Shown in pieces: positions 402-487 of a DNA stretch of 64,000 bases (position 1 is its first letter; every line of letters begins with the position of its first letter). The notes below the pieces were generated by a model, which saw only the letters and a list, made by a program, of their open reading frames with translations, was not told where the DNA came from and made no database searches. The position numbers and the translations under genes are program-made. The DNA comes from Natrinema saccharevitans (lineage in GTDB: Archaea > Halobacteriota > Halobacteria > Halobacteriales > Natrialbaceae): contig NZ_LWLN01000001.1 of assembly GCF_001953745.1 (NCBI RefSeq), forward strand, positions 1,240,001 through 1,304,000. Reading direction: 5' to 3'.

Positions 402-487
402 CTATAGTAGCTCTTGAAACGATTTACACACCGATCACAACGCTGTCCTGCGATCGGGTGTGCATTGACTTTCAAGAGCTACTATAG
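402..487 (-). repeat. 86-bp palindromic dispersed element, copy A
   Basis: The element begins and ends with CTATAG. The outer arms (402-419 and 470-487) are a perfect 18-bp inverted repeat, and an inner imperfect stem (CACACC-GATC type) continues the hairpin to a short loop. Its reverse complement aligns along the whole length with copies at 40499-40584 and 55808-55893, so it is inserted in the opposite orientation. It lies between the convergent thioredoxin and cupin genes. The rest of the 346-base gap (262-401, 488-607) shows nothing I can assign. Confidence 0.9.

Follow-up and report, generated by a model that had tools for sequence, protein, structure and literature searches.

What kind of unit is the 86-bp palindrome that recurs in the window (the whole stretch of 64,000 nucleotides of Natrinema saccharevitans contig NZ_LWLN01000001.1 analysed here), what moves it, and why do its two arms change in step? 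Our answer, to which we give a probability of roughly 0.9, is that these hairpins are an IS630-type MITE, presumably mobilised via the terminal inverted repeats (TIRs) common to the ~1055-bp IS630 transposons of haloarchaea. A preliminary description of the window reported three copies, each of 86 bases, bounded by CTATAG and folding into one hairpin, and these observations were reproduced with exact coordinates (402-487, 40499-40584 and 55808-55893). All three copies are 86 bp long with CTATAG at both bounds, the first is inverted relative to the other two, and copy A shows 83% complementarity to copy B and to copy C. Every copy folds into a single nested hairpin (DNA z of -3.8 to -9.1), and none of 200 shuffles was equally stable. 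The features of the window are as follows.

402-487, + strand: MITE copy A (TCTTGAAA subtype), made up of C (target), TA, the 80-bp element at 405-484, TA and G (target); in relatives, GTAG replaces the 86 bp.
403-404, no strand: left TA of copy A, a putative target duplication (from empty sites and outer-base variation).
412-414, + strand: arm triplet TCT, element positions 11-13, covarying with 475-477 (AGA).
420-423, + strand: CGAT half of an internal loop (19-22 in the element) that is conserved and mispaired, and that corresponds to a region in which the left end of IS630 is unlike the right.
466-469, + strand: opposite half of this loop, TGAC (65-68 in the element), on the same basis.
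475-477, + strand: partner triplet AGA, positions 74-76, covarying with 412-414.
485-486, no strand: right TA of copy A, a putative target duplication on the same basis as the left TA.
40499-40584, - strand: MITE copy B, of the CCGCTG subtype, with the element itself at 40502-40581, from the genome search and pattern.
55808-55893, - strand: MITE copy C, of the CAACTG/CCACTG subtype, with the element itself at 55811-55890; the copy is just upstream of a putative gene whose start is near 55943-55964.

The element is an 80-bp near-palindrome, TAGTAGC...GCTACTA, with the terminal inverted repeat CTATAGTAGC/GCTACTATAG. The 86-bp unit is a near-complete inverted repeat and is too short for a transposase; the earlier statement that the copies encode nothing stands. 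That all copies are intergenic is plausible, as 27 of the 33 annotated plasmid matches listed have no gene beneath them, but in the window ORFs of uncertain reality terminate within copies B and C. Adjoining copy C, at 55782-55807, lies a lone left-arm fragment (GGTAGCCGCCGACAGTCACTGCACAC) of an older MITE.

As had been proposed, the genome and other haloarchaea were searched for further copies. The source genome (3.98 Mb in three contigs) holds at least 91, on the main contig and a 0.42-Mb second contig, comprising at least 40 A-type and at least 40 B-type places and at least 11 recognized by pattern only. Three of these other copies are identical to copy A, and most A-subtype copies, among the matches listed, are 95-100% identical to it, which argues for recent activity. 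Using a covariance model built from 76 copies, we detected the family in 94 of 279 sampled haloarchaeal genomes of the same order (32 of 84 genera), and 47 haloarchaeal plasmid records contain matches. The phage records searched gave no match, and the single IMG/VR match, on an AT-rich viral contig (IMGVR_UViG_3300010970_000172, locus L294 6624-6706), was rejected by eye as non-homologous; its CTATAGTAGC...GCTACTATAG inverted repeat might be another CTATAG-ended repeat. Tandem double copies containing N in draft assemblies were set aside as assembly joins; in loci L107, L121, L132, L145 and L146, adjoining identical copies are split by N and are probably draft-assembly contig joins. In the openly accessible papers searched we found no account of this hairpin family.

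Evidence for movement came from joining the flanks of the genome's own copies and searching for the joined sequences in close relatives. This returned 13 clear empty sites, at which the relative has 4 bp instead of the 86-bp unit, so that the net gain is 82 bp. Together with the dispersed copies, these empty sites bear out the proposed mobility of a structured unit. The empty allele is CTAG at 7 of the 13 sites, often shared by two or three relatives per site (own sites L009, L012, L014, L030, L037 and L039, together with the copy of G006 in L191), and NTAN at 4 more, giving TA at 11 of 13. The non-CTAG alleles occur at one site each: GTAG (window copy A), CTAT, TTAA, ATAG, ACAG and CTGG, the last two being those without TA. 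For ISY100, 2 of 39 insertions in vitro were at AA/TT (PMC2170065). Only two tetramers are rarer than CTAG in the 64-kb window, where it occurs 15 times among 63,997 and base composition would predict ~198, and the insertion preference for it is therefore strong.

The empty sites also bear on where the element ends. In 60 of the genome's own copies, the outermost C or G differs at 18 of 120 ends, and neighbouring positions vary by ~1-2%; the outer C and G thus belong to the target, and what is duplicated is TA. The element is thus 80 bp flanked by duplicated TA, C-TA-element-TA-G, and CTATAG, which does bound all three window copies, does not as a whole form the element end, as first described. 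At one site a B-type copy in G000, A-type copies in G004 and G042, and an empty CTAG in G006 and G008 fit repeated insertion at the same site or replacement. Abutting copies have one CTATAG in common (L291, L293 and G000 C1:964599/964676), a net gain of 80 bp rather than the 82 bp predicted by TA duplication, for which our guess is TA-repeat contraction after insertion. Neighbouring copies with a single joint CTATAG lie at G000 C1:964599-964759 (L295), and one locus has a single copy in N. thermotolerans (L120) and two in N. mahii (L166/L293).

The need for a parent transposon, recognized in the preliminary description, is answered by IS630 elements with CTATAG-type ends in other haloarchaea, the kind of transposase proposed there; none was detected in the source genome, where the search gave no IS630 DDE_3 or HTH match. 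These IS630/Tc1-mariner transposons are ~1055 bp long (mostly 1059 bp including the flanking TAs, in 27 elements read) and contain two overlapping ORFs, one example matching HTH_33 (winged-HTH) and DDE_3. The 27 elements open with TATAGTAG or a close variant, with C before them in 24 and G after them in 18. When a typical IS630 end (TATAGTAGACGTTAGAAATAATTGCTCAC) is set against the MITE arm (TATAGTAGCCACTGAAAGTCATTGCACAC), 21 of 29 positions are the same, and beyond the first 8 positions the two agree at up to 13 of 21 (p=0.0006 by shuffling). The target CTAG is likewise common to both, and at one locus (L300, 1362-2501) an IS630-type transposon sits within a MITE copy, at a CTAG. Because both ends and target are common to the IS630 transposons, we identify the hairpins as an IS630-type MITE. 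They have what marks an IS630/Tc1-mariner MITE, being short and non-coding with TIRs that match those of IS630 and with TA duplication, to which CTGG, ACAG and the tandem copies are exceptions.

Of 286 genomes sampled across the order, 104 have IS630-family DDE_3 genes, and the MITE is more frequent among genomes that carry IS630 (odds ratio 2.8, p=1e-4, in a comparison that ignores phylogeny). Several MITE-rich genomes, the source genome among them, had no detectable IS630, as expected once a MITE has outlived its parent. In the fetched loci, a search for longer autonomous elements sharing these ends yielded chance pairs only, and none with a MITE-like interior was found there, a common situation for MITEs.

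The haloarchaeal hairpin MITE is a new family of a kind already known. In the pneumococcus, RUP (repeat unit of pneumococcus) is the textbook IS630 MITE, mobilised by IS630-Spn1 and similar in its length of ~100 bp, its ~100 copies between genes, its TIRs, which match those of an IS630 element, and its TA target (PMC2229807); the hairpin MITE differs in its archaeal host, in forming one hairpin over the whole element with strongly covarying arms, and in its CTAG-focused target. IS630 itself inserts at the TA of 5'-CTAG-3' (Tenzen and Ohtsubo 1991, as cited in PMC2170065). The TA duplication and CTAG preference of IS630 and ISY100 are found again here, and the MITE TIR is the haloarchaeal IS630 TIR, but the MITE is without an ORF and its arms are complementary where the IS ends differ. 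An 89-bp IS630 MITE of Methanosarcina mazei, with ISMma9 as parent, is likewise archaeal, IS630-related and nearly equal in length, but has 5 copies (PMC3852290) against at least 91 here, as compared by description. The Haloquadratum MITEs, PATEs and SMRs are also transposase-free mobile repeats of haloarchaea, and SMRs match in size and copy number; PATEs differ in having no terminal inverted repeats, and SMRs in having neither target duplication nor known parent (PMC3119063). ERIC and Correia/NEMIS are TA-ended, hairpin-forming, intergenic MITEs as well, but bacterial, with the parent transposon not identified in the review (PMC2229807).

The arms pose a separate question. Among 143 distinct 86-bp copies, pair 11-76 occurs as C-G, T-A, A-T and G-C, pairs 12-75, 13-74 and 16-71 have likewise changed on both sides, and positions 11-13 carry nine different fully complementary triplets. 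The inner-stem C-G of copy C that reads T-A in copy B, noted earlier, is the covarying pair 31-55. In the 76-copy alignment the covariation score was 0.237, as against 0.104 for shuffles and ~0.05 for slid partners, and parsimony on a tree put at 33 the events in which one Watson-Crick pair was replaced by a different one through changes on both sides. The arm changes are thus compensatory, as first reported, and the reverse of random substitution without pairing bias. At positions 9 and 10, the two ends agree in 26% and 7% of long IS630 elements, but in 97% and 96% of MITE copies; pairing thus belongs to the short form and is not something that the transposase requires. The MITE retains the mispaired loop 19-22/65-68, most of which falls at positions that set the left end of IS630 apart from the right (19, 21 and 22), suggesting a need for the MITE to preserve two distinct ends, left and right.

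How pairing is maintained is a matter on which the copies themselves give evidence. Young A-type copies carry 10 one-sided and 0 two-sided changes, so compensation is not instantaneous. By eye, the apical loop (~9-11 nt) of the copy at G000 C2:43100-43185 (L299) is inverted relative to all other copies, a sign of hairpin or cruciform processing, and in the N. mahii copy G004 C4:39619 the right-arm loop sequence is now the complement of the left. These two are evidence for hairpin-templated repair, and the strong long-term covariation and constant length are evidence for selection on pairing; arm pairing is probably maintained by one or both. The earlier wording that compensation implies selection for structure went too far, since templated repair would give the same compensation and G-U was not favoured. 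We consider it unlikely that the hairpin itself is selected besides IS630 end recognition, as an extruded DNA hairpin/cruciform or transcript needed for MITE amplification or through an action on neighbouring genes; if true, this would explain both the covariation at positions not fixed by the transposase and the persistently mispaired loop. The apical loop of MITE copies near L193 1230-1350 and L291 1390-1500 contains an additional GC-rich hairpin (GCGGTTC...GAACCGCG), which may represent another repeat family targeting hairpin tips.

Other explanations have to account for the same data. A structured RNA or cis-regulatory hairpin, selected at each site and only secondarily mobile, would suit the extreme covariation, the constant 86-bp length across genera and the conserved internal loop, which has tandem G.A mismatches in one strand. 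Against this very improbable reading, an Rfam search of the element matched no model, the sites are empty in close relatives, so that copies are not conserved in place, and the IS630 end asymmetry accounts for the loop. The strand preference of G-U over A-C (58 vs 47 inferred events) was not significant and gives no support for an RNA strand.

The GTAG at both hairpin feet recalls REP/REPIN-like hairpins, which a RAYT/IS200-type HUH transposase moves in single-stranded form, and REPs are also intergenic, of high copy number and divided into stem-compensating subfamilies (PMC3733652). Here, however, GTAG is paired within an 18-bp outer stem at both ends, unlike the unpaired one-end tag, it also belongs to the IS630 TIR, and the outer C and G act as a CTAG target with TA duplication; the same survey lists GTAG repeats for bacterial phyla only, and we rate this origin slightly below that of an RNA. 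Least probable is a small mobile repeat (SMR) as in Haloquadratum, with terminal inverted repeats, no target duplication and an unknown mobiliser: the two are alike in size (80-110 bp), in copy number and in having inverted repeats (PMC3119063), but the SMR definition excludes a transposon-matched TIR and target duplication, and here the TIR matches IS630 and TA duplication fits, SMRs being compared by description. A PATE or IS200-IS605 derivative was ruled out by the terminal inverted repeat.

With an IS630-type MITE as the preferred reading, the element would insert at the TA of CTAG-like sites, duplicating TA, and an IS630-type transposase would cut and paste it in trans via the common TIRs. 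The asymmetric loop probably retains separate left-end and right-end binding motifs, other arm positions may stay complementary through hairpin-templated repair and/or hairpin selection, and the IS630 gene may have been lost from the source genome after recent bursts.

A widespread haloarchaeal repeat family is now tied to a transposon family, an insertion site and empty alleles. The MITE/IS pair provides an internal control for the perfection of MITE hairpins, as the same TIR has arms matching only in the short form. The covariation is unusually clean, which puts the question of the hairpin within reach of a test. With empty alleles and a known insertion site, mobility becomes testable, and the copies become useful strain markers.
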